A stretch of 64,000 bases of DNA, from contig CM074768.1 of assembly GCA_037355855.1 (NCBI GenBank), forward strand, positions 2,418,001-2,482,000, written 5' to 3'. Both the position numbers and the translations under genes were made by a program. This DNA is from Pseudo-nitzschia pungens (lineage: Eukaryota; Bacillariophyta; Bacillariophyceae; Bacillariales; Bacillariaceae). Each line of letters opens with the position of its first letter. The stretch's first letter is position 1. This document shows positions 31,791-62,415 of the stretch, one piece after another. The notes below the pieces were generated by a model. It did not search any database. It had not been told where the DNA came from and saw only the letters and a program-made list of their open reading frames with translations.

Positions 31791-31799
31791 GCAATACTA

Positions 31800-31890: not shown

Positions 31891-31928
31891 ACACAGCTCT
31901 AGCACTCAGCTCAGCACCTGTTAGTCAG

Positions 31929-35311: not shown

Positions 35312-35335
35312 GGGTCGCGAACCAGTTTTCGGACG
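35312..35335. repeat. Element 1 right terminal inverted repeat (5' end)
   Basis: 24 bp ending CGGACG, preceded by four further GGTCGCGA motifs (35275-35310). The same arrangement is found at the 5' ends of elements 2 and 3. Confidence 0.97.
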
Positions 35336-35337
35336 TT

Positions 35338-42219: not shown

Positions 42220-42421
42220 CAGTTCCTCCATCTATCGTAGCACACTGAATATCTTATAAAACAAAGGGCTGCTAAGAGCTGATGGGGTATGTAGATCTGT
42301 TACAAATCCTGCCTACTTGAAAGACCCAACATCCTGTCTACTAGTACTACTAGCATCATCCTGTCTAGCATCCTATCTAGCATGATCCTCCTGTCTAGCA
42401 TCCTGTCTAGCATCCTATTTA
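42220..42421 (+). repeat. Host tandem repeat, left of element 2
   Basis: CACTGAATATCTTATAAAAC, GGGCTGCTAAGAGCTG, GGGGTATGTAGATCTG and several TCCTGTCTAGCATCCT copies, ending ATCCTATTTA at the element border. Same family as 18720-19720. Confidence 0.85.
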
Positions 42422-42445
42422 CGTCCGAAAACTGGTTCGCGACCC
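42422..42445. repeat. Element 2 5' terminal inverted repeat
   Basis: Starts CGTCCGAAAACTGGTTCGCG. Followed by four more CGCGACC/CGCGACT heptads up to about 42487, candidate transposase binding sites. Confidence 0.97.
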
Positions 42446-42487
42446 ATCGCGACCAATCGCGACCCGATCGCGACCCAATCGCGACTT

Positions 42488-42826
42488 GTCTTAAAAAAAT
42501 TCGACCCCAATTTTTTATTTCACAACCTTTTTTTCCATTATTCTCCACTTTTTTCCATTATTCTCAACCACATTTCTCCCTTTTCTCAACTCCCCCAACG
42601 TGTCGACGGAAATGTTCTGTTCTAGACCCTGACATTCAGTCCCTCTTCACATTTTCATTCCATTTTTACACATTTGACACACTTGACTCAACACAACAAA
42701 TAATTTTTAATCCAATTTACTTCAATCACACCAAAGTGTTACGTCGTGCACCTTTGTGAACTTTTTTTTTCAGTGGTGTCACATCACATACCGGGACATC
42801 GCACCATCACAAAAACACATACCACC
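42488..42826 (+). promoter_or_regulatory. Element 2 5' leader of the transposase-like gene
   Basis: AT-rich leader conserved in elements 1 and 3 (TTTTTATTTCACAACCTTTT, CAGTCCCTC, TTTACTTCAATCACAC). CTTTTTTTTTTCAG at about 42755-42772 looks like a 3' splice site, so an intron in the 5' UTR is possible. No TATA box can be assigned with confidence. Confidence 0.45.
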
Positions 42827-45800
42827 ATGCCGAAAGCTTCCTCGGACCCAAGGCACTTTGCCAATGAGCCCAGAATACCCAAGACATTCCATTGTCGCAA
42901 CTGCATTGCCTCCGGAAGAAGAAGAAAATCACAGCAATCCTTCAAGGGATACAAACAAGAATCGAGCCACTTTCACACCTACCGATACGTATCTCAAGGC
43001 CTCTCCAGGCATCTCTATTCCAACAATGATTGCCGAACTTATTATGTCAAGAACGATCTTATGGATTTTATTTCTTCTGCGAAAGCCGAAGTCACCCTCC
43101 CTTTGGTCCGACACACACCATCACAGTATGGACTGACAATGACACAGAATGGACCACAAATCCCCCCCTCCCTTGCCGAAACGAACACCGCCGCAACAAC
43201 TTCTATCCATACCTCACTCAATCCTCAAGTGATCGCCAATGTATTGATCCCACCCATGGACAGACAGGCAATCGAATCGCATATGGCTGAGAACGAGGAA
43301 ATGAATTCAATCGGTTCCGCTGTTGATGCCTCAGACCATTTTGATGCCAGTTCCGACACCGAAGTATCTGATTCCGAAATCACGAAACGCACCACCATTT
43401 CCATAAACGAAAGAGAGGAAACATTCCGGAATCGCACTCTGTTCCCACCCCGTCCGGAACTTATTGCTGAAATCAACCTCCTCAACATTATATCGCAGCA
43501 CAAGCTACCTCTTTCCACTTATCAAACCATTTTCAATTGGGCAAAAGACAGCAACAATCTTCCCGGTTTCGATTTCAATATTACACCAACAAGAAAACGT
43601 GACGCCATTTTCCAAGAAATTAAAAAAAATCTTGGCATAGCGTCGGAACCAAAATTTGAGCCCAAAATTGTGAATTGGCTTCCCGACAACAAACCCACCC
43701 AAATCTACGTCCGCTCTTTTCTGGATGCTTTGCATTCCCTGCTGTCGAACCCAGATTTAATGATGGAAGAAAATTTGTCATTCCCCAACAGCAACACCCC
43801 CTTGTCACCAGAGCATTTCCCGGTTCGAACTGATTCTTGTCCCATCACAGAGTTGCATCACGGATCATGGTGGTCGGATTCCTGGAGATCCCTCTGCATA
43901 GAAGAAAATTCTGAAATCCTTGTTCCCATCATTTTTTACATGGATGGAATTAGCTTGGATGCGCACGGAAGACTATCACTGACTCCACTCAACATGACCC
44001 TAGGCATATTCAACATTGAAACCAGGAAAAGGCCGGAAGCATGGACAACAATCTATTTTCATCCTGACTCTGATTTGGAGTGCATCCACCATTCAAGAAA
44101 ACCATCTCCAAAAGAATCAATCCAAAACCTCCATAATGCCCTAGAAGTGGCGCTCCGATCTTTCAAAGAAGCATGTGAGTCCACCCACGAAGGCATCCAA
44201 TGGGATTTTCTCCCATATGCCGGCCAATTGTGGCAAGTCAAAATGAAATTTGCAATAGCCTATGTCATCGGTGACACAGAACTGCATGATAAATTATGTG
44301 GCAAATATGGTTCCCGGTCGGGTGGTGTACAAAAGCTTTGCCGACACTGTAATTGTTCCACCAAGGACATAAATATTCCATCAGCACAACAAACAGCCTC
44401 TCTTTGGGTCCCATCAGATTTTCATACATTTCCAGACTCAGATGCCACCACCACCAAGGAATATTTCAACAATATTTCTCACCACCAAATCAGAAATGCA
44501 TTCCACGGTCTCAACTTTGGTACCAATGTAAACAATATTCACCTAGCCACGCCCGGTGAATGCCTCCACATGCACCAGCTGGGGTGTGCCAAACGAGAGG
44601 TAGAATCCCTGGAGCAACTGATGAAGGGTTCAATACCATGCCCGTATGCTGATCACCTAAAGACCGGTGTTTCCACAGTAAATACAATTGGGCATGTCTC
44701 TCAAAAATATGGAGCCCTACTCTCAAGGCAGTCGGATCGTGACTTTCCCAGAACTAAATTCAGCTCCAATCTTCTATCTGTCACTAAAAAGGAGGGGCAC
44801 GATTACAGTGGTATGCTGATTTCGATTCTTCTAACATTGGTTTCTGAATCCGGCATTGCAATTTTGAGGGACAACTCATTTGTGAAGAAGCACATTGATG
44901 TTATCGAACAAATCATCTCTATGGAAGAATTTCTCAAACACGGCCGTCCAACCACAAAGTGCATCAAAAATCTTCCCAAAACCATTATTCATTTCCTCAA
45001 CTCTATCAATGGCACCTGCCTTAGGAAGGGAATGGGAACAAAACTTATCAAAAATCACCTCTACTTTCACATTCCGAAGTACATCAGTCTTTGGGGTCCA
45101 ACATTAGGTTTCGATTCTGCATACAGTGAAAGTCACCACAAGACTGAAATAAAAGCACCGTCCAAAAATACTCAACAAAATGCCGCAACCTTAGTCCATC
45201 AGACAACCCGTCGGAAAGAAGAAGCATCTCTCCTTCGACTCGCAACCTCTCATTACAAGTTGAAGAAAGTGGGTGGTGATCCGAAAGTCATATCCCCCCG
45301 TCCTACACAGTATGGTGCCCGTTTCACCATTTTTCTGGATGGAACCAAAAGTTCGATGAGATGGATCAGACAACGGAACTACAACAAACCATTTCATTCA
45401 TCAATTGTACTAGATTTTGTTTGCAACTCTGTCCTTCCTTTGCTCAACGACACATCCAGCATATTTGGGTTCACCGAACACAACAGATGGGATTCTGTGA
45501 ATCGCGTCAACTACCTGTTCCGATGTCACCCCTCATATAGGTCTGATTCAGGCCAAGTTAACAGTGTATGGTTTGACTGGGCAATGTTTGCAGTTGATGA
45601 CAACACTGAAATCCCATGTCAAATGCTGTGTTTTCTGCATGTAAAAGATTTGAAACAACCCACATCGGCTGTGAATGGATACAATGTCGATTCAGATGGC
45701 ATCTACGCGGTTGTCAGAAAGTTTAGAGAGGATCCGAGGTCTACATCTTCTCACTTTGTAAAAAGTGGCTACCTTGACAATACTTTATATTTATTTAACA

Positions 45801-46018
45801 CTGACACTATTCTTTCCGAACTGGCAGTTGTTCCTGAACTGGAAGAGAATGCGGAACCGGTAAACAATGGTCGTTGGTTGGTTGTTCACAATCGATTGCA
45901 ATGGCTCGAATTCTTTGAAAAGAGGAATAATTCTATGACCTATACTACCTACGAGAGCCTCTACTCCGCTTGTCCTGTACAACGTGAGGCATCAGACAGC
46001 ACCGGCATTGCTGAATGA
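42827..46018 (+). CDS. Transposase-like protein of element 2 (CMC/Plavaka-type resemblance)
   Basis: 1063 aa from the ATG at 42827 (context ACCACCATGC), preferred over earlier Met codons that lie in the leader. N terminus: zinc-finger-like cluster C23, C26, H62, C69. Acidic spacer about 155-185. Core: LVPIIFYMDGISLDAHGRLSLTPLNMTLGIFN at 365-395, resembling large plant, fungal and oomycete TIR transposases, where the Asp (D373) is the first catalytic residue. D483 in VIGDTELHD is a candidate second residue. C505, C508 and C510 form a second Cys cluster, and PGECLHMHQLGCAKREVESLE (576-596) resembles the third conserved block with a candidate Glu. Expected to cut and join the TIRs. Nearly identical to the truncated copy in element 1. 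Family placement is by eye; the coding frame is certain. Confidence 0.85.
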   Translation: MPKASSDPRHFANEPRIPKTFHCRNCIASGRRRKSQQSFKGYKQESSHFHTYRYVSQGLSRHLYSNNDCRTYYVKNDLMDFISSAKAEVTLPLVRHTPSQYGLTMTQNGPQIPPSLAETNTAATTSIHTSLNPQVIANVLIPPMDRQAIESHMAENEEMNSIGSAVDASDHFDASSDTEVSDSEITKRTTISINEREETFRNRTLFPPRPELIAEINLLNIISQHKLPLSTYQTIFNWAKDSNNLPGFDFNITPTRKRDAIFQEIKKNLGIASEPKFEPKIVNWLPDNKPTQIYVRSFLDALHSLLSNPDLMMEENLSFPNSNTPLSPEHFPVRTDSCPITELHHGSWWSDSWRSLCIEENSEILVPIIFYMDGISLDAHGRLSLTPLNMTLGIFNIETRKRPEAWTTIYFHPDSDLECIHHSRKPSPKESIQNLHNALEVALRSFKEACESTHEGIQWDFLPYAGQLWQVKMKFAIAYVIGDTELHDKLCGKYGSRSGGVQKLCRHCNCSTKDINIPSAQQTASLWVPSDFHTFPDSDATTTKEYFNNISHHQIRNAFHGLNFGTNVNNIHLATPGECLHMHQLGCAKREVESLEQLMKGSIPCPYADHLKTGVSTVNTIGHVSQKYGALLSRQSDRDFPRTKFSSNLLSVTKKEGHDYSGMLISILLTLVSESGIAILRDNSFVKKHIDVIEQIISMEEFLKHGRPTTKCIKNLPKTIIHFLNSINGTCLRKGMGTKLIKNHLYFHIPKYISLWGPTLGFDSAYSESHHKTEIKAPSKNTQQNAATLVHQTTRRKEEASLLRLATSHYKLKKVGGDPKVISPRPTQYGARFTIFLDGTKSSMRWIRQRNYNKPFHSSIVLDFVCNSVLPLLNDTSSIFGFTEHNRWDSVNRVNYLFRCHPSYRSDSGQVNSVWFDWAMFAVDDNTEIPCQMLCFLHVKDLKQPTSAVNGYNVDSDGIYAVVRKFREDPRSTSSHFVKSGYLDNTLYLFNTDTILSELAVVPELEENAEPVNNGRWLVVHNRLQWLEFFEKRNNSMTYTTYESLYSACPVQREASDSTGIAE

Positions 46019-46079
46019 ACCATTCTACACTAGGCAGGTAACTAAACAATAAAAAATCTTTGTATCATTTGCTTCCGGC

Positions 46080-46400
46080 GTGATTGAAATCGATTGTCTT
46101 CGTCGTCATTAAAATCGTCGTCGCTCTTCGATTCGATTATCTTCGTCGTCATTGAAATCGTCGTTGCTCTTCGCTACGATGGCCTTTCTCTTCGTCTTCC
46201 TCCCTAAAATCGTCGTTGCTCTTCGTCGTCTTCCCTGAAATCGTCGTTCTGCCTGAAATCGTCGTTGCTGTTCGCTTCGATCATAGTCGTCGTTGTCCTT
46301 GAAATCGTCGTTGCTCTTGAAGTCGTCGTTGCTTCTCGCTTCGATCGTCTTCGTGGTCGTCTCTCCGATCTTCTATTTGAATCAGTCGTTCCGCCCGAAC
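46080..46400. repeat. GTCGTCGTT-type minisatellite, left of the 731-aa gene
   Basis: Units such as TCTTCGTCGTCATTGAAATC followed by GTCGTTGCTCTTCG, about 50-65 bp. Same family and orientation as 48597-49375, so the 731-aa gene lies between direct copies of one array. Confidence 0.9.
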
Positions 46401-48596
46401 TCAGTCGTTCCGCCCGAACTCTGAAACGTCCTCTGCCTCCGTGTCTGATTCCGAAAGTTCCAAATCGGAGTCGTAGAATTCCGCATCCGAATCTGAATCT
46501 GAATCAGAACCAGCATCACCCGCATCCTCATCGTCATTCCCAGGGGGACTATTGGCTGCAGCATCAGCCTCATCAACGGCCGCATCAGAACCAGCATCAC
46601 CAGCATCCTCATCGTCATTCCCAGGGGGATTATTGGCTGCAGCATCAGCCTCAGCAACGGCCGCATCTGCTTGATCAAAGGCAACTTGGGCAGCGTCTCT
46701 GGCTGCCACGGCTTCATCACGAGCTGCTTGGGTTGCCATTTCTTCCGCCTCTGCCTCATACCTTTCATCCTGAGTGGCATTTTGATTCTCATCGATTTCT
46801 ATCCAACGGTCCAACGCAGCTTGCCACTCAGCCTGTCGTTGCGCGAGCTCTACTTGCGCTGCCTGCAAATTAACTTCGGCCACACGTCTTGCTCTTCTGT
46901 GTTTGCCCCAATCAAGCAAACAGAACACAAATGTTTCTGGACCACGACCTCCCCTTCCCATTCCGTATTTTCTGTGAAATTCAGGGTTTTTGGTGGCAAA
47001 ACCAATCTTGTTCTCCAGACTGAAAACAGTACCTTCTTCGTCTGTACCAAATTTGTCATAGTGAAGACCGACCGGGTGTTGCACAAGTGTTGTGGAATTA
47101 AGGGAACAAAACTGATACAAAATTTCACCAATGTCATTCGAACCTGCACGGGTCGTGGCTTTCTTGTGGTTTCTCAACTCGCGCGCAACAGCAAGAGGTA
47201 CCACATTCAGCACCCCTTCCATTCCTTCAACAACAATGTTGCTCAGCTCTCTCAGAAGTAACGCACTGACTATCTTCGACGCTGTGAATGGCTGAAAGAA
47301 TTTGTATCGCGAAAACAAATCCTTGGTGATCGGCCCGATCTGTCCTCCATACTGAGGGTTGGAATATGCCCAATGAATTGGACGTCCTCTTCTGTTGATG
47401 TAAAACACACGTATTTTGTGCCCGTCTGGAACAACGAAGGTTGCATTTCCCTTCCTAGGTGTAACACTCGGGTTTTCAAGCATCTGGAAGAGGGCTCGAG
47501 TTGGTCCACTGTATACTCCACTGCTGCCCCCAGAACGACTCCTTTCTATGTGGTTAGTTCTCGTCATTTTCTGAACTTCCAGAAACAACGATCGAACCTC
47601 CTTCTGCTTCATTTGAAGAGCATCACTTCCATGATAGAACCGAGCCAAAAGCAGGTTCTGTTTCTGTCCCAATTTAGGTGATTCAGAAAAACTTCCAACA
47701 ATGATGGTAACGTCACATTCTTCTCCACGATCCTGAACTGAGAACACCCTGGAATTGCTGAGTGATGCCGCTGTATATTCCGGAACTTCATTGATGCCTT
47801 TGGTACACTGGGAACCATGCACTACGATGAGTTGCACCCTGTACATTCTTTTTTTATTTGGATTGGCAATCCCGGGACACATGACATTCACCACACTTGT
47901 TTTCACCGTGTCGGAATTGTTGGTAAGTTTGATGGGTCTAACATCCATTGCTGCAGCTTCTCTAGCAAGATTGTACCCCACGACAAAATGTTTCACTCCA
48001 GCAAGGTTTGGCTCCTTCCCGAATCCATGGCAATCAATGACATTCTCCGAGATAAGAGGGGTGTCGATTATCACATTGTACTCTGGTAACACGATGTAAC
48101 CATCAAACCTAAGTTGCACTTGTCTGCATTCCACATGAATGAAATGACGATGGGACCTCAGTACCTCCTCTCTTTGATCAACAAAAATACAGCCGTGACA
48201 AACTGATACCTCTCTCCGGTTATCAATCAAAGCATTTTTCATTTGTTTGATCCCATCAGGCAGATCGACGCTGCTACCGCCTGTCCTTTTTTCTATGAGT
48301 CTAAAAATAGACTGCAAGCATTTTCTGCAAGAAAATGTGTTACACCTTGTGCAAACAATTCCATCAGAGGTGCGTCGACAGTTCTTAGTGCCCTTCTTCC
48401 CCCTTGTACTTGCCTGCGTCAACGTCGATATGCGACCCAAATTGCACCGGCACGAATTGTCCTTACTTTTCTGCTCGTCCTTTCTCCTCAACCTCTCCTG
48501 CCTTATCTCCTTGTTTTCAACAAGGTCGGTCCCAATTTTTTTGTTCCTCTTGGAAGATGTGGATCGTGTCATTATGTGAGGGTCGTTGCTCTTCAC
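46401..48596 (-). CDS. 731-aa Cys-rich cargo protein of element 2, family unknown
   Basis: Single frame on the strand opposite to the transposase. The start is at 48596; a second Met eight residues on is possible. Basic N terminus (1-45), then Cys at 49, 51, 73, 82, 85, 90, 93, 133 and 136, a spacing like zinc-binding domains (CTRCNTFSCRKC at 82-93). The middle (about 150-560) looks globular, including KIRVFYINRRGRPIHWAY and LHYDKFGTDEEG. The C-terminal quarter is an Ala/Glu/Gln coiled-coil-like region followed by two copies of ADAAANxPPGNDDEDAGDAG and an acidic tail. I recognise no catalytic motif. It is missing from elements 1 and 3. The flanking direct minisatellites could mean the gene was captured as a unit. 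Confidence 0.65.
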   Translation of the reverse strand: MKSNDPHIMTRSTSSKRNKKIGTDLVENKEIRQERLRRKDEQKSKDNSCRCNLGRISTLTQASTRGKKGTKNCRRTSDGIVCTRCNTFSCRKCLQSIFRLIEKRTGGSSVDLPDGIKQMKNALIDNRREVSVCHGCIFVDQREEVLRSHRHFIHVECRQVQLRFDGYIVLPEYNVIIDTPLISENVIDCHGFGKEPNLAGVKHFVVGYNLAREAAAMDVRPIKLTNNSDTVKTSVVNVMCPGIANPNKKRMYRVQLIVVHGSQCTKGINEVPEYTAASLSNSRVFSVQDRGEECDVTIIVGSFSESPKLGQKQNLLLARFYHGSDALQMKQKEVRSLFLEVQKMTRTNHIERSRSGGSSGVYSGPTRALFQMLENPSVTPRKGNATFVVPDGHKIRVFYINRRGRPIHWAYSNPQYGGQIGPITKDLFSRYKFFQPFTASKIVSALLLRELSNIVVEGMEGVLNVVPLAVARELRNHKKATTRAGSNDIGEILYQFCSLNSTTLVQHPVGLHYDKFGTDEEGTVFSLENKIGFATKNPEFHRKYGMGRGGRGPETFVFCLLDWGKHRRARRVAEVNLQAAQVELAQRQAEWQAALDRWIEIDENQNATQDERYEAEAEEMATQAARDEAVAARDAAQVAFDQADAAVAEADAAANNPPGNDDEDAGDAGSDAAVDEADAAANSPPGNDDEDAGDAGSDSDSDSDAEFYDSDLELSESDTEAEDVSEFGRND

Positions 48597-49375
48597 TTCG
48601 GTCGTCGTCGTCGTCCCTGAAATCGTCGTTGCTCTTCGCTTCGATCGTCTTCGTCGTCCCTGAGATCGTCGTTGTGCTACGTTTCGATCGTCTTTGTCGT
48701 CGTCCCTGAAATCGTCGTTGCTCTTCGCTACGATCGAAATCGTCGTCGCCCTTCGTCGTCCCTGAGATCGTCGTTGTGCTACGTTTCGATCGTCTTTGTC
48801 GTCGTCCCTGAAATCGTCGTTGCTCTTCGCTACGATCGAAATCGTCGTCGCCCTTCGTCGTCCCTGAGATCGTCGTTGTGCTACGTTTCGATCGTCTTTG
48901 TCGTCGTCCCTGAAATCGTCGTCGCTCTTCGCTACGATCGAAATCGTCGTCGCCTTTCGCTTCCCTCTTCGCTTCGATCGTCTTCGTCGTCCCTGAGATC
49001 GTCGTCGTGCTATGTTTCGATCGTCTTTGTCGTCGTCCCTGAAATCGTCGTCGCTCTTCGCTACGATCGAAATCGTCGTCGCCCTTCGCTTCCCTATTCG
49101 CTTCGATCGTCTTCGTCGTCCCTGAGATCGTCGTCGTGCTATGTTTCGATCGTCTTTGTCGTCGACCCTGAAATCGTCGTCGCTCTTCGCTACGATCGTC
49201 TTCGTCGTCGCCCTTCGCTTCCCTCTTCGCTTCGATCGTCTTCGTCGTCCCTGAGATCGTCGTCGTGCTATGTTTCGATCGTCTTTGTCGTCGACCCTGA
49301 AATCGTCGTCGCTCTTCGCTACGATCGTCTTCGTCGAAATCGTCGTCGCTTTTTGTTCCGATCGTGTTAGGCGAC
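48597..49375. repeat. GTCGTCGTC minisatellite, right of the 731-aa gene
   Basis: About 12 units built from TCGCTACGATCGAAATCGTC, GTCGTCCCTGAGATCGTCGT, TGTGCTAYGTTTCGATCG and TCTTTGTCGTCGTCCCTGAA, forming higher-order repeats of about 120-130 bp. Both strands are open over most of it. The minus frame (286 aa, RSEERRRFQGRRQRRSK) and the plus frame (232 aa) are translations of the array. Its inverse occurs at 62105-62415. Confidence 0.95.
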
Positions 49376-49559
49376 AAGCGGTGGATAGATGTGAAAAATG
49401 TTAGTACTAGTAATGAGTCTAAATCAAAAATACACGATTCACCTACATCTTAAAGGCAGAAAATATGAAAATATTTTTAGGAAGCTATGCATACCTTTTC
49501 CGATCGTTCCGGTCGTCGTCGTCGCCTGGTCTGTATGATGTTGCTAGTATGTACCGTAC

Positions 49560-50025
49560 ATATGACCTTGTGTTACGTGTCCATATTAGTAGTGCTGTGG
49601 GTAGCACCAACCAGTGCCTGATATTAGTATTAGTAGCAAAATAATATTGCCTGATATTACTACTAGTAGCAAAATAATAGCACCGGTAATATTATTTGCT
49701 AGGCATCATAATACTGCCCACTGTATGTTGCTAGCACTACTAAGCATCATAACACTGCCCACTGTATGTTGCTAGCACTCGGCTGTAATATTATTTGCTA
49801 GCATCGTAATAGTGCCCACTGTATGTTGCTAGCACTACTAGGCTGTTATATTATTTGCTAGTAGTGCCCACTGTATGTTGCTAGCACTACTAGGCTGTAA
49901 TATTATTTGCTAGCATCATAATAGTGCCCACTGTATGTTGCTAGCACTACTAGGCTGTAATATTATTTGCTAGTAGTGACCACTGTATGTTGCTAGCACT
50001 ACTAGGCTGTAATACTACAATACAT
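49560..50025. repeat. Minisatellite of GCCCACTGTATGTTGCTAGC units
   Basis: Six to seven units of about 50-60 bp containing GCCCACTGTATGTTGCTAGC, ACTACTAGGCTGTAATATTA and TTTGCTAG. Noncoding DNA upstream of the 721-aa gene. Confidence 0.9.
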
Positions 50026-50383
50026 TTTAACACGATGCGAACAGAAAGTGGTGGGAGTAACATTGATTTCTTTGCAAACCAATACGTTATTCCTATCATT
50101 ATTATTACCCCCTAAACAAAACCTTGCCCACGACGCATGACCGACCCCTGACTGTTAGTAGTGCCTATGGACAACGGTTTTTTTTCAGTTTCCAAAACAT
50201 TCAGTTCAAACTTGTTTTGTTCCACGGTGAAAAAAAGGATCACATCGTGTTTACATTTTAAACATTTTGAGATCAATTGTTACGATCAAGCAATTGCCTA
50301 ATGAATTCATGCTTCGGAGCCTTTAAGATGAACAAACATAATTTCAATTTTCAGACAGGAGCATCAGTTCACTGTGAAACATC
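50026..50383 (+). promoter_or_regulatory. Upstream region of the 721-aa gene
   Basis: Unique AT-rich sequence between a minisatellite and the ATG at 50384. Likely holds the promoter; no motif can be assigned. Confidence 0.35.
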
Positions 50384-52549
50384 ATGGCAAGGCACAAAAG
50401 GAATAGAGATTCACCATCTCGTCGGTCTGGAAATCCATCTCGGTCCAGACGGCGACGAACAAATCCTCCGAGAAGATCACCTCGTTCACCCCCCGAACAA
50501 AACTATCGTGAGGATTCATCTAGCAGTGATGATGGTGCTGAAGCAGTACCTGCTCGTGACCAATATGTACCTCCACCAGTATCGGAGAATGAGGAGGAAC
50601 TTGAGCAAGATTCCACCGACACTGAACAACCCCAACAAGAGAATGAGGAGGAAATTGAGCAAGATTCCACCGACACTGAAGAATCTTCTGATGGAGAATC
50701 GGAAAGTGAGAATGAAGACAGTGATTCGGAAAGTGAGAATGAAGACAGTGAGGATGAAGACAACGACCAAGAATCGGAGCGTGACACCCATCCGCGAATG
50801 CCTGACTTCCCATGGGAAAAAAAAGACGAAACAACCAAAACAAATCCTACTCCCGTCGGGGCTAAGGGAGCCGACGATCCCAAAGATAACGAAGGCGAAG
50901 ATGATGAACAAAATAAAATTAATCCTGTCGTCGGGGCTAAGGAAATCGACGATCCTGCGGATAATGAAGAGAACGCAAAAAATAAAACTAATCCTTCCGT
51001 CGGGGCTAAGGGAACCGACGATCCTGACAATGACCAAGACTGGGTAAGTGTGATAACAAATATCACTTTGCAGGAGGTTCTACGCCATCCTCCGAACCAG
51101 ACCAACAATTCTTTCGGGGCTCGCGGTGCCGACGATTTCAGCGAGGACCGAACCGAAAAGAAAGATAATGACGACGATTCGAGCAAGGACGAAGACGAGG
51201 TCCGAAAGGAAAAGAAAGATAATCCTCCCGTCGGGGCCAAGGGCAACGACGAACGCAAAACCAACAATTCTTTCGAGGCTCATGGTGCCGACGATTCAAG
51301 CGAGGACGACGATTCGAGCAAGGACGAAGACAAGGATCGAAAGGAAAAGAAAGGTAATCCTCCCGTCGGGGCCAAGGGCAACGATGACCGAAAAACCATT
51401 AATTCTTTCGAGGCTCGTGCTGCCGACGATTTGAGCGAGGACGATGATTCGAGCGAAGACGACGATGCCAAAGCCAACGACAGGGATGGGGAAGACGACG
51501 AGCCTAAAGCGAACGAAGCCACAAACCAAAACAAAGCCATCGGGGCTGTGGAGGACGACGTTCCTAAAGCGAACGAAGCCACAAACCCAAAAAAAAAAAA
51601 AAAAATCGACTATGACAATAACGAGGTACGGATTGAACGCAGGCTCGGCCGCAAACAAAGTACACTGCCAAAAAATGCCAAGAACATGAAAGACAAAGGC
51701 GTTAGAGGAAAACTAACAACGGTTGCAAAAAACGTAAAAGAACTTCAGTTTTGCAGCACCTATGGAGATATGACAAAACAAAAAGATAGTCCCGGCTTTA
51801 TTAACTTTTTGGGTTCCTACGACGACATCATTCCAAGAACAAGTGCTAAATCAAATTTTGAGTCCGATTGGGACTATCAGAGAAAGAAAGGACCAAAACT
51901 CACATTTCTTGTCGATCCCGCATTTGACCTATATAGAAAAAAAATTGGTGATCAATTAATCAGTGCTGGCAATTGGTTTAAGGAGAATGAATGTAAAAAG
52001 ACCGGACCGTATCACACACAAACTGTGGAAGATTATTTCGATAGGAACTTCGGTGATGCTGCGCCGGCAACAAATGGGAAATTCAAACGTGATGACATCA
52101 AGAGTGTGTCCCCCTCTGAAATAGAAAAGTGGACGGAGAAACAGATGGAAGATATCGTTCAGGAGGAGACTAAGGCTATGACAACAGAAGAAAAAGGGTT
52201 GTTCCGACGCTCGGTGAATGCTGTGATGGGCGAGCAGCAACGCTACAAGAAGAAAGGGAATGGTGCAATCCGTGAAGGAAAGAAAAATTGTTTCGTAGTC
52301 GCCCACGAGAACGTCAACCAGAAAAGAAGGGGGGACGAGAAGGAGAAGAAATTAGCAAGCCTCAGTAATAGTGTTCAAAACAAGGAACAGGAGACTGAAC
52401 AAGACAGAGTGAAAAAGAAGAAAAGGAAAAAAAAGGGGAAGAGGATACAGAACTCAACGTCCAACCTTCCACCTCATATGAAGAAGCATCCTCCACCAGG
52501 TCCACCGAAGCCAGAGAAAAAGCCTCCAGCAGGGGCACAACAGAAGTAG
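50384..52549 (+). CDS. 721-aa charged cargo protein of element 2, family unknown
   Basis: The ATG at 50384 has context CATCATGG. Residues 1-40 are Arg/Ser/Pro-rich (RSRRRRTNPPRR), followed by a long acidic stretch. About five copies of an internal motif PVGAKGxDD / SFEARGADDxSED then spread over about 150-395. A Lys run encoded by an A-run near 51590 leads into a non-repetitive C-terminal part (about 410-620; ELQFCSTYGDMTKQKDSPGFINFLGSYDD within it), and the tail is strongly basic with KKKKRKKKGKR and Pro-rich ends. A nucleic-acid or chromatin role would fit, but no known domain is seen. Absent from elements 1 and 3. An inner GTAAGT...TTTGCAG pair 30 nt apart (51044-51073) keeps the frame but is too short for a normal intron. 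Confidence 0.65.
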   Translation: MARHKRNRDSPSRRSGNPSRSRRRRTNPPRRSPRSPPEQNYREDSSSSDDGAEAVPARDQYVPPPVSENEEELEQDSTDTEQPQQENEEEIEQDSTDTEESSDGESESENEDSDSESENEDSEDEDNDQESERDTHPRMPDFPWEKKDETTKTNPTPVGAKGADDPKDNEGEDDEQNKINPVVGAKEIDDPADNEENAKNKTNPSVGAKGTDDPDNDQDWVSVITNITLQEVLRHPPNQTNNSFGARGADDFSEDRTEKKDNDDDSSKDEDEVRKEKKDNPPVGAKGNDERKTNNSFEAHGADDSSEDDDSSKDEDKDRKEKKGNPPVGAKGNDDRKTINSFEARAADDLSEDDDSSEDDDAKANDRDGEDDEPKANEATNQNKAIGAVEDDVPKANEATNPKKKKKIDYDNNEVRIERRLGRKQSTLPKNAKNMKDKGVRGKLTTVAKNVKELQFCSTYGDMTKQKDSPGFINFLGSYDDIIPRTSAKSNFESDWDYQRKKGPKLTFLVDPAFDLYRKKIGDQLISAGNWFKENECKKTGPYHTQTVEDYFDRNFGDAAPATNGKFKRDDIKSVSPSEIEKWTEKQMEDIVQEETKAMTTEEKGLFRRSVNAVMGEQQRYKKKGNGAIREGKKNCFVVAHENVNQKRRGDEKEKKLASLSNSVQNKEQETEQDRVKKKKRKKKGKRIQNSTSNLPPHMKKHPPPGPPKPEKKPPAGAQQK

Positions 52550-52619
52550 GAGTCTGCAAAATTTGGTACACCCAACAAGAAAAGGAAGACAACGGGCGTG
52601 TAATGGAATATTATAAAAG

Positions 52620-53395
52620 ATAGTATAATGTGATTTGGTAATTTTATCTAATAAATTCTGAATAATTCGTAATGTTTGAATACTTCTTTTTGAATACTTT
52701 AAATAATGGTGAGTAAATGCATATATTAGAATACTAAAAGGGTATAAAGTTGCTACCAATTATATTTCGGATGTAAGTTCTGATTTCTGAGAGAAATTCT
52801 GGGTACACAAAATTACAGCACAGAATGTGCAAATTTCCTGTGGATGGGTGAAATTGTCCTAGATTATTTGTGTTCCGCACTGAATAATGGTCAGTATATG
52901 CATCTATTAGAATACTAAAAGGGTATAAAGTTGCTACCAATTATATTTCGGATGTAAGTTCTGATTTCTTAGAGAAATTCTGGGTACACAAAATTACAGC
53001 ACAGAATGTGCAAATTTCCTGTGGATGGGTGAAATTATCCTAGATTACTTGTGTTCCGCTCTGAATAATGGTCAGTATATGCATCTATTAGAATACTAAA
53101 AGGGTATAAAGTTGCTACCAATTATATTTCGGATGTAAGTTCTGATTTCTGAGAAAAATTCTGAGTACACAAAATTACAGCACAGAATGTGCATATTTCC
53201 TGTGCATGGGTGAAATTGTGCTAGATTATTTGTGGTCCGCACTGAATAATGGTCAGTATATGCATCTATTAGAATACTAAAAGGGTATAAAGTTGCTGCA
53301 ACTTATATTTTGGATGTGACACTTGCTTTGTAAAAAAAATCCTTGGTAGACCAAAATCCACCCCAAAATATGATTTTTTCCGGAACAGGCATCAT
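52620..53395 (+). repeat. 181-bp tandem repeat inside element 2
   Basis: ATACTAAAAG recurs at 52731, 52912, 53093 and 53274, exactly 181 bp apart. The left edge (52620-52690, GTGATTTGGTAATTTT and TGAATACTTCTTTTTGAATA) matches the repeat of element 3 at 59825-61245, so two related satellites meet here. Confidence 0.95.
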
Positions 53396-54093
53396 ACTGA
53401 CCAATGTTTTCTTGTCTTAGAGTGTTAAAAATGCATGGTAACACAAGTGGCTATGTAAGATAATGGTGATTATTTGGTTACTAGTATGTCCAAGAATATG
53501 AAATAGAATAAACCAGGATGAAAAATTTGACAAAAAAAGTAGTAGTCCAGTCCCTTGGCAAAGAAAAATATATTTCTTGTGAAGGACTCCATCCTACCAC
53601 ATCTGACCCTTATGGTCATAAGGGTACCACAGAGACTGTACGATCCTTTTGTTATAGCTATGAATATTGTCATTATATATGTGAATCTATCACAGCCAGT
53701 ACTATCCCTCGTACAACTCATACTTGAACCGGTGGTGCTGCTGGTATACTTGTGTAGTAGTAGTACTACTAGTAATTATTGCCTACTGTACAGCAGGGAA
53801 TAGTAGAGCCAACAATACAATCAGTAGTGAATATGGGTACAGTAGAGAATGAACAGAGATGTGCACAGGTGGATAGAAAAAAATTATGGCGCGGGTGGGA
53901 ATCCTCTTAAACATTTGGCCACGTCACCTACAATTTCCTTAGTGAAGTGTATGACATTACAAGTTGCGGGGATGGTGAGAGGAAAATGATTAACAGGTTT
54001 TTTGTTAGTAGTGAAAAAACTGTGTTCACAATTTTATGGCTTCACGTATTTTTTTTTACTTCATATTTTTTTTTACTTCCGACGCCCGCAAAA
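53396..54093 (+). promoter_or_regulatory. Upstream region of the element 2 accessory gene
   Basis: Conserved with 29607-30290 of element 1 (inverted) and partly with 61300-61430 of element 3 (AAAAATTATGGCGC). Contains TTATGGCGCGGGTGGGAATC and a short TAGTAGTAGTAC tract. The most plausible promoter region of the spliced gene. Confidence 0.5.
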
Positions 54094-55694
54094 ATGCCTA
54101 CCGTATATGATGAGTATCAGCAAATAGAAAAGAAAGCAGATTGCAATGCACCAAGAAAGAATCGAAGTGGAAAAATTGTATCCAATGCTAATACAGGTGA
54201 GGATACTACTGCTAGTGTTACCCATACGAAATCGAACCCAAAGACGAGTAGAAAACTACCACCCACCTCAGGTGGTGCTGATGAAAAAAATAAAAGAACC
54301 AAGAACAACCCGACCGCGGTTTTCGTTGGTACCACACCACCAACCAACAAACCCCCCGCCGCCCTTGGTGTTGTTACACCAAGACCGATTACGACCGGTA
54401 CCAAAACAACACCAAGACCCACATACGAAGCATTGCTACAACAGCTAAAAGAGAGCCAGCAGAAAGTAGCTTCTTTGGAGAGGGATGTGACAACACTGCA
54501 GAAGGATACAAAAAAAGAAGAACCCACGCTGGAGGCAACTACAACAGGGAAGAAGCCAAAGCCACAGATGGTACGAACCGTAAGTGAAGCAAAATTAGAG
54601 ATAACTAAGCCGCAATCGGATAAACTTAAGAAACATCAAAAAGACGCGGGTTTGGAAGCACAGTTGACACGGCACATAAGAAATAGTTGGTTTCGTAGCT
54701 TGAAGTTTATCATGGATGAGAGTAAGGTCAAAAAAATTTTGAAGGAAGCGATTGCGTCCCGAGCTGTCATTCCACCCCATGGTATTTCATTCGAAATTTT
54801 TTATGGGTTTAACAGAAGGTTGGTGTACAAGGGTCTTTCAAATCTGCGGCACAATGCTCAAACTTTGGCTAGAAAACATTTTCTCGGTACGTGCTTACTA
54901 AGTGAATAAATTGGTTGCTATTACTGCTTGGTTGAGATTGATGGTATATCCTCCCCTGCTACTCTAACACTTTCTACTGCTGTGTACGCGTCGTACTAGA
55001 GGACACACGCGATCGCGAAGGCATTGTGCCAGATTCCTTTCCAGGTAAAGTGGAGATTGTGATGCGGGAGAGTACTAGTAGTAGTGGAACTAGTACTAGA
55101 AAGAGGCTGGGACTGAACCCAGAGTACAGAAGGTATGACAACAACAGTGAAAATGATGATTTTTATTACTTTGTGACTCGGATTCTATCAAGCATCTCTC
55201 CAATAGAGAGGGGCTACAGATGGAAAAAGACGACATGTTTGCTGAGTGAAATATTCACAGAAAGCGATGAAGCATTTGCATTGATGATGATTCATAATGA
55301 GTATGATGTTTGGGTGAATCATGTTGAGCAAAAAAGGAACGGTGGTGGCAGGATTGTGAGAAGGAGGAAGAAAAAGAAATTTTGTGACCAATACAGTGGA
55401 GAGGAACAATCATGGTCGAAGGAAGGTCTAGCACTGTTCAATAACTTGTGCAGGGAGATTGATGTGCTGAGGAAAGATCCGAGAACGGGTAGAGAGTGTG
55501 AGGAAAGATTGAGAGAGAGGCTCCGTCGCGAGAGTGAAAACGATGACAACAACAACAGTCCGTACGATGAGGACTGGGTGCAGGAGGAAGAAGTTACTGA
55601 ATACATTAGTCCGGAGCTACAAGCTTTGCTAGATGTAAATGAAGATGAGGAGGACTTTACTGGCAGTAACGATATCGCGTTGGCCAGTCTTTAA
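54094..55694 (+). CDS. Transposon accessory protein (spliced), element 2 copy
   Basis: Exon 1 is 54094-54886, the intron 54887-54999 (113 nt, GTACGT...TACTAG), and exon 2 55000-55694, giving 495 aa. Without splicing exon 1 stops inside the intron, and the second frame would need a GTG start; splicing joins both in frame through a Glu codon. The product is close to the element 1 copy, with substitutions and two extra residues near the Ser/Thr run. Features are a basic Thr/Pro-rich N terminus, a possible coiled coil, a basic helical block (RHIRNSWFRSLKF...PHGISFEIFYGF), a charged middle (RMRRRKKKKFCDQYSGEEQSW-like) and an acidic C terminus (EDFTGSNDIALASL). Its presence in both gene-bearing copies suggests it matters for transposition. 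Function unknown. Confidence 0.85.
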
Positions 55695-56291
55695 AAATTG
55701 TTCGAGATCGAACCAAAATTTGTGTGTGAGTGTGTGAGAAAACTGAACAGAGAATAAACAATTATTATAGTAGTATCAATATTTATCAAAAGAAAGACTT
55801 ATATTTTGCATCGTAGTGTTTCAAAATTTTTTTCATGGGGGTCGCGATTCCTGTAATTCGGGTAATAATTGTGATTTTCCTGATGAATTTCTTGAGGGGT
55901 GTGATGGGAAATACTTTGGGTCGGGATGAGAAATCAATTTTTGGGAGTGAATTTCTGCAACAGTCTCATAATATATAATGTTGGTAGGGTCGGTAATAAT
56001 GAGTCAGATTGAAAAAAAATTGGGGGAAGGGGGGGATTATTTTGAGAAAACAAATATTTTTTTTTTTAAAATGTTGATTAATTTGATTAAGTGACTGAAG
56101 AGAAAAAATTCGAGTCTTTAAAAAAATCGGGTTGAGTATGAATTTTTTTTTTTTTTTTTTTCGTAATTTTCGTAATTGAGGTAGTTACTGGGTCGCGATT
56201 GGGGGTTGCGAATCGGGAGAGAGCTAGGAATCGAGCTACGTCAAAATGAGCCAGGGAGAAATCGCGACCCCCCTAAATAAATTCTTGGGAG
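55695..56291 (+). other. Element 2 3' untranslated and subterminal DNA
   Basis: Matches 27421-28011 of element 1 (inverted) and 62430-62882 of element 3. Contains AATAAA (near 55754), a possible poly(A) signal for the accessory gene, long A/T runs and CGCGA motifs. Confidence 0.7.
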
Positions 56292-56315
56292 GGGTCGCGA
56301 ACCAGTTTTCGGACG
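56292..56315. repeat. Element 2 3' terminal inverted repeat
   Basis: Perfect complement of 42422-42445. Confidence 0.97.
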
Positions 56316-56427
56316 TAGTAGTAGTATGTCCCCCTTACTTCTGTACAGTTCTGTCCATATCTATTTGTTACTACTAGTACTAGTAGCACCACACTGAAGA
56401 ATATCTTACTATGATATAGGCGGGCTC
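56316..56427 (+). repeat. Host repeat sliver between elements 2 and 3
   Basis: 112 bp: TAGTAGTAGTATGTCCCCC, TCTGTACAGTTC, CACTGAAGAATATCTTAC and GCGGGCT. It aligns with 63028-63150, the next unit of the same host repeat. Confidence 0.85.
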
Positions 56428-56734
56428 GTCCGAAAACTGGTTCGCGACCCATCGCGACCAATCGCGACCGGATCGCGACCCAATCGCCACTTGTCTCAGA
56501 AAAATGCGACCCCAATTTTTTATTTCACAACCTTTTTTCCACTATTCTCAACCTTATTTCTCCTTTTTCTCGATCCCCACATCGTTTACAGGAAAATGTT
56601 CTGATCTAGACCCTGATATTCAGTCCCTCGTCACCCTTTCATTCCATTTTACACATTTGACACATTTGACTCAACATAACAAATAATTTTTAATCAGATT
56701 TACTTCAATCACACAAAAGTGACAGCAAGCAGCA

Positions 56735-58545
56735 ACCAATGCGTCGATAATACAGGGGGGAAAGCAAGCAGCAGCAACGCGTCGATAATACAAACGCGTC
56801 GATAATACAGGGGGGACAGCAAGCAGCAGCAACGCGTCGATAATACAGCAGGGGGGACAGCAAGCAGCAACGCGTCAATAATACAGCAGAGGGGACAGCA
56901 AGCAGCAGCAAGCAGCAACGCGTCGATAATACAGGGGGGGGGGACAGCAAGCAGCAACCAACGCGTCGATAATACAGGGGGGGACAGCAAGCAGGAGCAA
57001 CGCGTCGATAATACACCAGGGGGGACAGCAAGCAGCAGCAACGTGTCGATAATACAGCAGGGGGGACAGCAAACAGCAACGCGTCTATAATACACCAGGG
57101 GGGACAGCAAGCAGCAGCAAGCAGCGACGTGTCGGTAATACAGGGGGGACAGCAAGCAAATAGAGGTGCTGAGTGAATGAGCCAATCAAAAAAATCGATT
57201 TTCCAGTACAAATTGTACAGGAATATACGTAGAAAAAAATTAATACAGGGGGGACAGCAAACAGCAAACAGCAGCAGCAACGCGTCGATAATACAGGGGG
57301 GACAGCAAGCAACAACGCGTCGATAATACAGGGGGGACAGCAAGCAACAACGCGTCGATAATACAGGGGGGACAGCAAACAGCAAACAGCAGCAGCAACG
57401 CGTCGACAATACAGGGGGGACAGCAAGCAGCAACGATCTGTCGCTCCTGCAAGCTGCAACGCGTCGATAATACAGGGGGGACAGCAAGCAACAACGCGTC
57501 GATAATACAGAGAGACAGCAAACAGCAAACAGCAGCAGCAACGCGTCGATAATACAGGGGGGTGAGCAAGCAGCAACGAACGCGTCGACAATACAGGGGG
57601 GACAGCAAGCAGCAACGAACGCGTCGAAAATACAGGGGGGGGACACCAAGCAGCAGCAACGCGTCGATAATACAGGGGGGGGGGACAGCAAGCAGCAGCA
57701 ACGCGTCGATAATACACCAGGGACAGCAATCAGCAACGCGTCGATAATACAGGGGGGACAGCAAGCAGCAACGCGTTGATAATACAGGGGGGGGACAGCA
57801 AGCAGCAGCAACGCGTCGATAATACAGGGGGGGGGACAGCAAGCAGCAACAAACGCGTCGACATTACAGGGGGGACAGCAAGCAGCAACAAACGCGTCGA
57901 TAATACAAGGGGGACAGCAAGCAGCAACGCGTCGATAATACAGGGGGGACAGCAAGCAGCAGCAACGCGTCGATAATACAGGGGGGGGGACAGCAAGCAG
58001 CAGCAACGCGTCGATAATACACCAGGGACAGCAAGCAGCAACGCGTCGACAATACAGGGGGGGGACAGCAAGCAGCGGCAACGCGTCGAGAATACAAAAG
58101 CGTCTATAATACAGGGGGCGACAGCAAGCAGCAACGCGTCGATAATACAGGGGCGGACAGCAAGCAGCAGCAACGCGTCGATAATACAGGGGGGGACAGC
58201 AAGCAGGAACCAACGCGTCGACAATACAGGGGGGGGACAGCAAGCAGCAGCGCGTCGATAATACAAACGCGTCGATAATACAGGGGGGACAGCAAGCAGC
58301 AACGCGTTGATAATACAAACGCGTCGATAATACAGGGGGGACAGCAAGCAGCAGCAACGCGTCGATAATACAAACGCGTCGATAATACAGGGGGGACAGC
58401 AATGCTGCGCGTCGATAATACGGGGGGGGACAGCAAGCAGCAACGCGTCGATAATACAGCAAGCAGCAACCAATGCGTCGACAATACAAGGGGGGGGGAC
58501 AGCAAGCAGCAGCAAGCAGCAACGCATTGAAAATACAGGGGGGAT
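56735..58545 (+). repeat. 35-bp minisatellite CGCGTCGATAATACAGGGGG ACAGCAAGCAGCAA
   Basis: About 50 units with variable G-runs (6-10 G), AGC duplications and shortened units. It is interrupted once by AT-rich sequence at 57180-57240. On the minus strand all frames stay open, giving frames up to 615 aa rich in Cys, Leu, Tyr and Arg (for example LLAVPPVLSTRCC). They are not genes. It begins where the transposase leader of element 2 would reach the start of the gene. Confidence 0.95.
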
Positions 58546-58559
58546 AATACACGAGAATA

Positions 58560-59110
58560 TTTTTAAAGAACTGTCGCCTTCGTCGCCTTATTACCTTTTC
58601 CGATCGTTCCGGTTGTCGTCGTCGTCCCTATTCGTCGTCGTCCCTCTTGGCTCCGATATCTCCTGTGTGAATGTATAAAATAAACAACAGACGGTTAGTC
58701 GTCATTATCATTCCGGTCGTCATCGTCGTCTCTCTCTGTCTCGATCGGTTTTCAATTACGGTACCTTTTATTGTCGTCGTCCCTATTTGTTTCGATCGTC
58801 GTCGTCGTTTCTCTTTGCTCCCATCTCTCCTGTGTGAATGTACAAAATAAACAAAAGGCGGTTAGTCGTCATTATCGTTCCCGTTGTCGTCGTCATCCCG
58901 GTCATCGTCGTGTCGGTCGTCGTCATCCCGGTTGTCGTCATCCCGGTGGTCGTCGTCGTGTCGGTCATCATTGTCCCGGTCGTCGTCGTCCCGGTCGTCG
59001 TCTCGCTCGTCATCGTCGTCCCCCTCTTCTACGATCGTACCTTCGTCGTACCTTTTACTAGTGTCGTCATCCCTCCCCGATCGTCTTCGTCGTCCTCTGC
59101 AGGTTCGTTC
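58560..59110 (+). repeat. CGTCGTCGT/CGGTCGTC-rich low-complexity region
   Basis: Irregular GTCGTC words with two longer near-copies around CATCTCTCCTGTGTGAATGT (about 58665 and 58825) and CCCGGTCGTCGTC runs. Related in style to 48597-49375. Frames on both strands are repeat translations. Confidence 0.85.
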
Positions 59111-59824
59111 GCGGGTCGTACTCGTAGATATCTGGGTAAGCCAGATGACTCAAGGTCTGCAGCCCACCCTACCTTGATAACAAAAGATAACAGGAAGGAT
59201 TTCAAGAGTGATCAGTTCTTTACTTTCTTTGCCATTAGTCTCTCCAAGATGGTACCAGGCGCCTTGCTCCCACTTTAAACTGGACCGGCCAGAAAATTCC
59301 AACGCCGAAACGAAAATGAAAATTATGACACATCCTTCACGAGGGAGATGTGGGGCGGAAAATTCACCCCGATGATGATGATGCACGTAATGTACGTAGG
59401 TAACAGTACTGTTTGTACAGGCTGACTGGAAAAAATGACAGCAATGTACGTAGATTACAGTACTGTTTGTACAGGCTGACTGGAAAAAATGACAGCAATG
59501 TACGTAGATTACAGTACTAAGTCTACAGTCTTAGTAAAAGAAAAAATGACATGTCTGCATACATACCTAGTAGTACGTATGTATGTATGCAGGGGATGTG
59601 TAGGTTTCCAGTACTGTGTATACTGTACGTAGGGTACTGGTAGAAATCTTTTGGTAGTAGCATTATAAGATAGAGAGAACACCATTAAAGCAGTAGTAGA
59701 CAGTAATAGTGGTATCACTGGATGTGACTGATGTGGTGTTGTTGGTTCGAGTGCCATGGTGGAAATATATTTTGCTACATCACGATGCGATAACAATATT
59801 TTTGCTGCGAAGCACATGTCAGAA
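59111..59824. other. Unique stretch in element 3 with a 54-bp tandem repeat
   Basis: TGTACGTAG recurs at 59391, 59445 and 59499, every 54 bp. TGTATGTATGC/GCATACATAC words form a hairpin near 59555-59590. No gene is supported. Confidence 0.6.
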
Positions 59825-61245
59825 TAAGTGAGCTATTCAGTTATTCAATGGTGACATCCATACTATTGGTGATTTTTGAATACTTCTTTTTGCATACTCT
59901 TGCCCATGCATAGGATGAGGAATATTCACACTGGAATCACACAACTATTGGCCAGATTCATTCAGATATGTGATTTGGTAATTTTTTCTAGTAAATTCTG
60001 CAGTAGTGGACCAAATATCAATTATTCAGTGGTGACACCCAAATTATAGGTGATTTTTGCATATTTCTTTTTGCATACTCTTGCCCATGCACAGGATGAG
60101 GAATATTCACACTGGAATCACAGAAATATTGGTCAGATTCATTCAGATATGTGATTTTACAGTATTTTCTAGTAAATTCTGCAGTAGTGGACCAAATATT
60201 AATTATTCAGTGGTGACACCCAAATTATAGGTGATTTTAGAATACTTCTTTTTGCATACTCTTGCCCATGCATAGGATGAGAAATATTCACACCGGAATC
60301 ACACAAATATTGGATAGATTCATTCAGATATTTGATTTTACAGTATTTTCTACTAAATTTTCCAGTAGTGGACCAAATATTAATTATTCAGTGGTGACAC
60401 CCAAACTATTGGTGATTTTTGAATACTTCTTTTTGAATTCTCTTGCTCATGCATAGGATGAGGAATATTCACACCGGAATCACACAAATATTGGACAGAT
60501 TCATTCAGATATTTGATTTGGTACTTTTTTCTAGTGAATTCCGCAGTAGTGGAACAAATATTAATTATTCAGTGGTGACACCCATACCATTGGTGATTTT
60601 TGAATACTTCTTTTTGCATACTCTTGCCCATGCACAGGATGAGGAATATTCACACTGGAATCACACAAATATTGGCCAGATTTGTTCAGGTATGTGATTT
60701 TACAGTATTTTCTAGTAAATGCTGCGGTACTGGACCAAATATTAATTATTCAGTGGTGACACCCAAATTATTGGTGATTTTTGAATACTTCTTTTTGCAT
60801 ACTCTTGACCATGCATAGGATGAGGAATATTTACACTGGAATCACACAAAGATTGGCCACATTCATTCAGATATGTGATTTGGTACTTTTTTCTAGTGAA
60901 TTTTCCAGTAGTGGACCAAATATTAATTATTCAGTGGTGACACCCAAATTATAGGTGATTTTTGAATACTTCTTTTTGCATACTCTTGACCATGCATAGG
61001 ATGAGGAATATTCACACTGGAATCACACAAAGATTGGCCAGATTCATTCAGATATGTGATTTTACAGTATTTTCTAGTGAATTTTCCAGTAGTGGACCAA
61101 ATATTAATTATTCAGTGGTGACACCCAAATTATAGGTGATTTTTGAATACTTCTTTTTGCATACTCTTGCCCATGCATAGGATGAGAAATATTCACATTG
61201 GAATCACACAAAGATTGGCCAGATTCATTCAGTTATTTGATTTGA
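59825..61245 (+). repeat. 181-bp satellite of element 3, about 8 copies
   Basis: TTGCATACTC or its variant recurs at 59890, 60071, 60252, 60433, 60614, 60795, 60976 and 61157, always exactly 181 bp. Units share ATTAATTATTCAGTGGTGAC and TGAGGAATATTCACACTGGA. Small frames starting MPMHRMRNIHTGITQILDRF are repeat translations. Confidence 0.97.
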
Positions 61246-62104: not shown

Positions 62105-62415
62105 TGGTGTGCATGAGGACGAAGACGATCGGAGCAAAGAGCAACGACGATTTCAAGGACGACGAAGACGATCAAAGCGAAGAGCAACGACGATTTCAGA
62201 GAGGACGACGAAGACAATCGAAGCGAAGAGCAACGACAATTTCAGAGAGGACGACGATTTCAGGGAGGACGATGAAGAGGAAGGCAATCGGAGCGAAGAG
62301 CAACGATGCCTTCAGGGAGGACGAAGACGATCGAAGCGAGAAGCAACGACGCCTTCAAGGACGACGAAGACGAGGACGATCGAAACGAAGAGCGACGACG
62401 ATTTCAAGGACGACG
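62105..62415. repeat. GACGACGAAGACGATCGAAG minisatellite, inverse of the element 2 array
   Basis: The units, complemented, equal those at 48597-49375. It is bracketed by AATTTGTGTG on the left (62098) and the right (about 62417), at a point where elements 1 and 2 have this motif only once. Charged plus frames (110-122 aa) are translations of it. Confidence 0.9.

Follow-up and report, generated by a model that had tools for sequence, protein, structure and literature searches.

A four-gene diatom transposon with CGTCCG ends, a predicted Plavaka/CACTA-clade transposase and middle genes that appear to be exchanged between copies

The window analysed here is a 64-kb stretch of the genome of the diatom Pseudo-nitzschia pungens (assembly GCA_037355855.1, contig CM074768.1, positions 2,418,001 to 2,482,000). 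At 42422-56315 it contains element A, a DNA transposon of 13,894 bp. Element A is a real multi-copy transposon with four genes, perfect 24-bp ends and a 2-bp target duplication. Its features, in coordinates of the window and with the evidence for each, are these:

42420..42421, no strand: left copy of the target duplication, TA (end read-out)
42422..42445, + strand: left terminal inverted repeat, 24 bp, beginning CGTCCG (end comparison, repeat search)
42437..42484, no strand: five subterminal TCGCGA palindromes 10-11 bp apart, starting at 42437, 42447, 42457, 42468 and 42479
42827..46018, + strand: gene 1, 1063 amino acids (aa), predicted Plavaka/CACTA-clade DDE transposase (open reading frame (ORF) from the ATG at 42827, motifs, profile, predicted fold)
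46074..46382, no strand: TCGTCG-rich tandem repeats between genes 1 and 2 (repeat scan, alignment to the C8 element discussed below)
46401..48572, - strand: gene 2, 723 aa, with a Cys-rich N-terminal part and an acidic tail (ORF, relatives)
48582..49362, no strand: second TCGTCG-rich tandem-repeat block, on the other flank of gene 2 (repeat scan)
50384..52549, + strand: gene 3, 721 aa, with a low-complexity, repeated N-terminal half and a conserved C-terminal half (ORF, relatives)
52697..53358, no strand: 181-bp tandem repeats after gene 3 (repeat scan, alignment to the C8 element)
54094..55694, + strand: gene 4, 495 aa, exons 54094-54886 and 55000-55694 (spliced ORF, genome relatives)
56292..56315, - strand: right terminal inverted repeat, 24 bp (end comparison, repeat search)
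56316..56317, no strand: right copy of the target duplication, TA (end read-out)

The terminal inverted repeat, CGTCCGAAAACTGGTTCGCGACCC, matches at 24/24 bp between the ends at 42422 and 56315, just as a preliminary description of this stretch had stated, and the element thus reads CGTCCG..CGGACG. An inverted-repeat scan pairs the two ends over 29 nt at 97%, TA included. The exact 23-mer of the end occurs 7 times in the window versus 0 in 100 shuffles. A genome-wide search for the repeat, proposed in the same description, finds this 23-mer 218 times in the 66.9-Mb host genome (both strands summed), and its reversed control 0 times. The octamers TCGCGACC cluster near the ends, all 26 of 26 in the window sitting at most 475 bp from an element end.

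The coding content is largely as first described: a 1063-aa transposase-like gene (gene 1), a 721-aa gene (gene 3) and one gene on the opposite strand (gene 2) were all recovered. The 731 aa given for gene 2 hold for an ORF read from a GTG, but the first ATG, at 48572, gives 723 aa, and this ATG is the start position in most aligned relatives. Gene 4 does reach the 495 aa ascribed to it, but only after removal of a 113-bp GT-AG intron (54887-54999); five frame-keeping acceptors were found, of which the first one yields 495 aa.

Counting element A, ten elements traced from end to end have matches to all four genes in one constant order, and in nine the 2-bp duplication is perfect. The preliminary description had proposed one large mobile element with four genes and had looked to several full-length copies for support, and the ten copies bear it out: rather than lying in separate nested insertions, the genes keep their order in ten elements with both ends. 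Some of the gene matches are stop-broken or in pieces. At C9:3741022-3752972, for example, only a fragment of gene 2 is present and one stop interrupts each of genes 1 and 3, and at C7:4700127-4714802 gene 2 is split in two pieces. Ten end pairs were examined for duplications, and nine have perfect ones (TA, TA, TA, TG, TC, AT, TT, AA, TA); nine pairs, the mismatched one included, enclose elements with all four genes, and one is gene-less. Because the dinucleotides vary among copies, the target is 2 bp of any sequence, so that the TA first described is right for element A but is not specific to the family. From strict end patterns, which supplied 85 left ends and 100 of 101 right ends, 61 elements could be paired, 45 of them 4.9-7.7 kb long; six hold all four genes, one holds genes 1, 2 and 4, and two hold genes 1 and 4 only.

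Counted from the transposase, 42 gene-1 places were scored out of 272 candidates, and the copy tallies used 42/42 gene-1, 52/64 gene-2, 50/97 gene-3 and 59/125 gene-4 rows, those omitted being mainly fragments of included rows and distant gene-4 relatives. At 30 of the 42 places gene 2 is reversed and genes 3 and 4 are forward, as the count demanded, all within 22 kb downstream. These complete sets are packed within 11 kb downstream of gene 1 in 24 of 30 cases; two (C1:5166624 and C9:3834493) span more than 20 kb and may mix the genes of neighbours. An older four-gene set at C7:3653602-3666582 has identities of 86% for gene 1, 59% for gene 2, 38% for gene 3 and 45% for gene 4, and because it keeps the order at these lower identities, the layout is old. 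Elsewhere, at C4:6301987-6309133, three tandem gene-4 copies 3.1 kb apart lie in one 20-kb element.

Gene 1 is, as judged from its profile, motifs and predicted structure, a Plavaka/CACTA-clade (CMCT) DDE transposase. In the profile search suggested for the 1063-aa protein, the ATG-started gene 1 matches the Plavaka Pfam profile PF18759 with 29.4 bits against a cut-off of 26.3, and 17 of 19 aligned gene-1 members match it at E<=0.01. The clade is defined by a DDE triad with C(2)C and H(3-4)H between the second D and the E (PMC12730594; for this and all other papers cited, our statements refer to the part of the text accessible to us). The corresponding motifs of gene 1 are D373, D483, C505xxC508, H744xxxH748 and E768, conserved in 18-19 of the 19 aligned members, E768 being picked as the catalytic E because it is placed after the H(3)H motif. 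In fold comparison the predicted fold of residues 207-817 is RAG1-like, of the RAG1/Transib type. The assignment to the clade is made because the Pfam cut-off is passed, the clade motifs are present and the predicted fold matches RAG1. Residues 824-1019 have a tentative BAH-like fold in the predicted structure. The named relatives of gene 1 are entries with the prefix Psemu1, which we take to be the code for Pseudo-nitzschia multiseries, or come from Cylindrotheca fusiformis.

Distant relatives of gene 4 are frequent in the genome. At each of the four best of 57 Plavaka places (C1:3056743, C2:6496963, C5:4925450 and C3:274392), which lie outside the scored gene-1 list, a gene-4 relative is found about 2.8 kb downstream on the same strand. 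The gap between transposase and gene-4 relative is about 0.5 kb, an estimate for which a 1051-aa frame found at two of the places is assumed for all four, and so short a gap cannot accommodate genes 2 and 3. We take genes 1 and 4 to be a functional pair, on the model of TNPD and TNPA in maize En/Spm. Gene 4 would then be a TNPA-like partner binding the phased TCGCGA sites near the ends, and the TCGCGA array would be a candidate counterpart of the subterminal repeats bound by TNPA. Hence only part of the cargo first described keeps that label: genes 2 and 3 look like cargo, but gene 4 belongs with the transposase. The genome contains thirteen gene-4 relatives free of interruptions, 91-100% alike over 490 aligned aa; for one of them, L090:4007-5500, the 4 kb upstream contain neither a transposase nor a gene 2/3 ORF, and gene 4 may also be maintained in separate elements.

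The lack of room at the four Plavaka places, together with the loss of both genes from element C (a shorter copy in the window, described below), would suit an account in which genes 2 and 3 represent a second transposon that inserted a single time into an ancestral element and was inherited with it from then on. Around the module borders, however, no inverted repeat of at least 10 bp was found between 45951-46450 and 52501-52800, and the gap in element C cuts into the end of gene 1, which indicates a deletion and not an empty site. The module also has the same place and orientation in 30/42 gene-1 places, orientation having been required by the count. We regard such a nested origin as quite unlikely.

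Comparison of copies suggests instead that the middle genes have been exchanged between elements whose outer genes are near-identical. Aligned with the element at C8:1678039-1692478, element A shows 97.1% identity over the stretch from 45798, where the comparison starts, to 46073, 55 bp past gene 1; high identity, now 91.9%, resumes at 52702 and continues through the right end. Between 46073 and 52702 gene 3 is unalignable as DNA and gene 2 is only about 70% identical. Synonymous divergence (dS) between the two elements reaches 1.78 in gene 2 and 2.07 in gene 3, values near 2 being saturated, but only 0.088 over 72 codons of the gene-1 tail and 0.040 and 0.000 for the two gene-4 exons. In the C7:3836593 element gene 2 alone is old, with dS of 0.090 in the gene-1 tail, 0.72 in gene 2, 0.037 in gene 3 and 0.046 in gene-4 exon 1. 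Two element pairs thus have mosaic divergence. The module borders fall at the TCGTCG-rich repeats flanking gene 2 and, past gene 3, at the 181-bp repeats, and these tandem repeats are plausible recombination places for module exchange. By gene-2 identity the 30 complete sets, which share descent and are not independent samples, form groups of 11, 6, 2 and 11, the last 11 being exactly the sets with a divergent gene 3. This coincidence could come from linkage or from co-adaptation. These patterns make genes 2 and 3 look like a middle module that elements can exchange.

The same contrast might have arisen with no exchange at all, if an arms race sped up the evolution of genes 2 and 3 while a single lineage, amplified recently, made the ends and genes 1 and 4 uniform. 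Such an account would fit the low-complexity N-terminal half of gene 3 and the coincidence of the deep gene-2 and gene-3 splits (19 and 11 of 30 sets, with no mixtures). The contrast is nevertheless seen in synonymous sites (dS 1.8-2.1 versus 0.00-0.09), and gene 2 is under purifying selection, with a ratio of nonsynonymous to synonymous divergence (dN/dS) of 0.15-0.30 in 14/15 comparisons and 0.56 in one, the 15 including six pairs compared both over the whole gene and over its core. At C7:3836593, moreover, a gene 2 with dS 0.72 sits beside a gene 3 with dS 0.037. Because the roughly 20-fold dS difference stands beside flanks that are 91.9-97.1% identical, faster evolution alone hardly explains it, and we hold this account to be decidedly unlikely.

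In the genome search with gene 2, 26 of 64 rows cover more than 700 query residues without a stop, and gene 2 has a single relative beyond this genome in the protein search, at 38% identity. A Pfam scan of gene 2 gave chance-level rows only, with no domain recognised, and neither PDB nor the viral contigs gave a match. Gene 3 has no Pfam match, and none in the viral contigs, where a single-protein query reaches close relatives only. Our guess is that genes 2 and 3 aid the element in its host, e.g. in regulation, chromatin or escape from silencing. The preliminary description had thought of replication or packaging; the Pfam and viral-contig scans gave nothing pointing there. Polinton-type and virus-like elements are defined by genes for DNA polymerase B, a retroviral-type integrase and a capsid. 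Pfam finds none of these among the four genes, genes 2-4 having been assessed at the sequence level only. Only size and multi-gene content speak for a Polinton-like or virus-like element using its additional genes for replication and packaging. Against it, Pfam scans of the genes and some relatives detect no polymerase, capsid, packaging ATPase or protease, the viral contigs hold no relatives of the end or of genes 1-4 (for genes 1 and 3, single-protein queries reaching close relatives only), and the transposase is RAG1-like in predicted fold. This account seems to us extremely improbable.

Taken together, we consider it quite probable that element A belongs to the Plavaka/CACTA (CMCT) clade as an autonomous-type cut-and-paste element, having genes 1 and 4 as its core, an exchangeable gene 2/3 module, and end-only copies mobilised in trans. 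The core would consist of the ends, the predicted RAG1-fold DDE transposase and gene 4, the last acting at the phased TCGCGA sites in the manner of TNPA. The module, a reversed gene 2 followed by gene 3, would sit between the core genes and be swapped among copies by recombination in or near the bracketing tandem repeats, and the transposase would mobilise end-only copies in trans. The data directly support the ends and duplications, the order of the genes, the number of copies, the clade of gene 1, selection on gene 2 and the mosaics in two element pairs; we infer the cut-and-paste chemistry, the role of gene 4, recombination as the cause of the mosaics and the trans mobilisation. A bolder version, in which genes 2 and 3, as a co-adapted and exchangeable cassette, help the element to escape or read host silencing while a C-terminal BAH-type reader of gene 1 steers insertion, draws on the unmixed gene-2 and gene-3 splits of the 30 sets and on the predicted structure, and strikes us as unlikely. 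If true, it would make the element a carrier of interchangeable accessory genes whose RAG1-like recombinase contains its own chromatin reader; the words BAH domain are absent from the 12 of 355 literature matches listed.

Several observations weigh against the explanation we prefer. A 1090-aa version of gene 1 with extra N-terminal residues gave no Pfam Plavaka match, the profile scores just under the cut-off for the element C copy (25.8 bits) and the relative P0001 (24.5 bits), and two further glutamates of gene 1, E578 and E700, vary no more than E768. The termini CGTCCG..CGGACG are unlike those of PlavakaA and PlavakaB (TGT..ACA and CATCA..TGATG; PMC12730594) and therefore place element A outside both as described, despite its Plavaka-type transposase. 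Among the ten duplications there is an imperfect one (CA/AA). Only a minority of copies have the four-gene form, 52/61 strictly paired elements being without any listed gene place, where a pair counted as empty may still hold a gene fragment or an unscored gene 1. The pieces and relatives of gene 4 have no Pfam domain above cut-off, and its subterminal binding is a prediction. Finally, alignments tend to end in tandem repeats, so that the border positions are alignment limits, and faster change of genes 2 and 3 could add to their divergence.

Three further relatives of element A, or parts of them, share the window:

27397..35335, - strand: element C, a 7.9-kb deletion derivative with duplication TT; genes 1 and 4 are kept, gene 1 shortened, and genes 2 and 3 are lost
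56427..62906, + strand: element B, a 6.5-kb relative with duplication CT; it has only the ends in common with element A and none of the four genes
63330..64000, + strand: element D, the end of a further relative running past the window edge (end match)

Element C splits a Ty1/copia-type pol ORF on the minus strand into halves at 24909-27362 and 35133-38183, which offers a natural test against the empty site. Joining its 120-bp flanks gives a one-frame read-through only with exactly one TT kept, and for this reason the duplication is independently fixed at 2 bp. About 0.8 kb of element C beside the deletion point (31097-31930) has no match to element A or to the compared stretches of two other elements. 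The interiors of element B and L089 are 73-88% alike in aligned pieces, and on this ground at least these two are assigned, by sequence likeness, to one non-autonomous family. A minisatellite with units mostly 35-48 bp apart occupies 56705-58552 in element B, and ORF translations of L089 and L090 show similar repeats.

Among known systems, element A resembles Plavaka in its above-cut-off match to PF18759, its DDE triad with C(2)C and H(3-4)H, and its 2-bp duplications, as in PlavakaA, within a clade range of 2-5 bp (PMC12730594). Some fungal Plavaka also carry an extra (TET/JBP) gene (PMC12730594), whereas element A has three other genes, no TET/JBP match in Pfam scans, and a diatom host. It differs from CACTA/EnSpm in the strict sense by having neither CACTA (CAC..GTG) termini nor a 3-bp duplication, and resembles it in the repeated subterminal motifs and in gene 4 as a candidate second protein. 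From KDZ/Zisupton it is set apart by its 2-bp duplication, versus 8 bp for Zisupton (PMC12730594). The family was first thought possibly undescribed. Its transposase lies within known superfamilies, but its CGTCCG termini match no Plavaka/CACTA termini described in PMC12730594.

Maize En/Spm encodes TNPD and TNPA, of which TNPA binds subterminal repeats (PMC2613891). It shares with the present family a transposase plus second protein, repeated subterminal motifs and deletion derivatives; maize, however, has CACTA termini (PMC2613891), and gene 4 is likened to TNPA by role, not homology.

The usual picture of a DNA transposon is that of a gene or two passed on en bloc. The preliminary statement that cut-and-paste elements usually carry one or two genes is right as a rule, but enlarged En/Spm (CACTA) elements of 16-20 kb with 4-5 ORFs are described in the red alga Chondrus crispus (PMC6431247). 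These are like element A in size class, ORF number, superfamily and algal host, and differ from it, compared by description only, in that its transposase is Plavaka-type. Giant EnSpm and KDZ elements of Ectocarpus exceed 10 kb, have accessory genes mostly of unknown function and often a broken transposase, and have been inferred to be mobilised in trans (PMC12477816). All of this is shared, trans mobilisation being inferred here too, whereas the element A family repeats the same two accessory genes in fixed order, seemingly exchanged as a module. Because of the Chondrus (PMC6431247) and Ectocarpus (PMC12477816) cases, a multi-gene CACTA-type element in an alga is a known kind. The literature searched (titles and abstract starts, most subscription journals lying outside) yielded no diatom Plavaka element, and as far as it reaches, what is new is a Plavaka-type transposase with CGTCCG ends, a fixed gene 2/gene 3 module, and its apparent exchange between copies. 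A large diatom transposase of predicted RAG1 fold could help to trace the spread of the RAG1/CACTA clade, and so abundant an element offers many intact copies of two conserved gene families without a recognised domain. With near-identical ends, transposase and partner gene but long-separated middle genes in one genome, cassette exchange between cut-and-paste elements becomes measurable.

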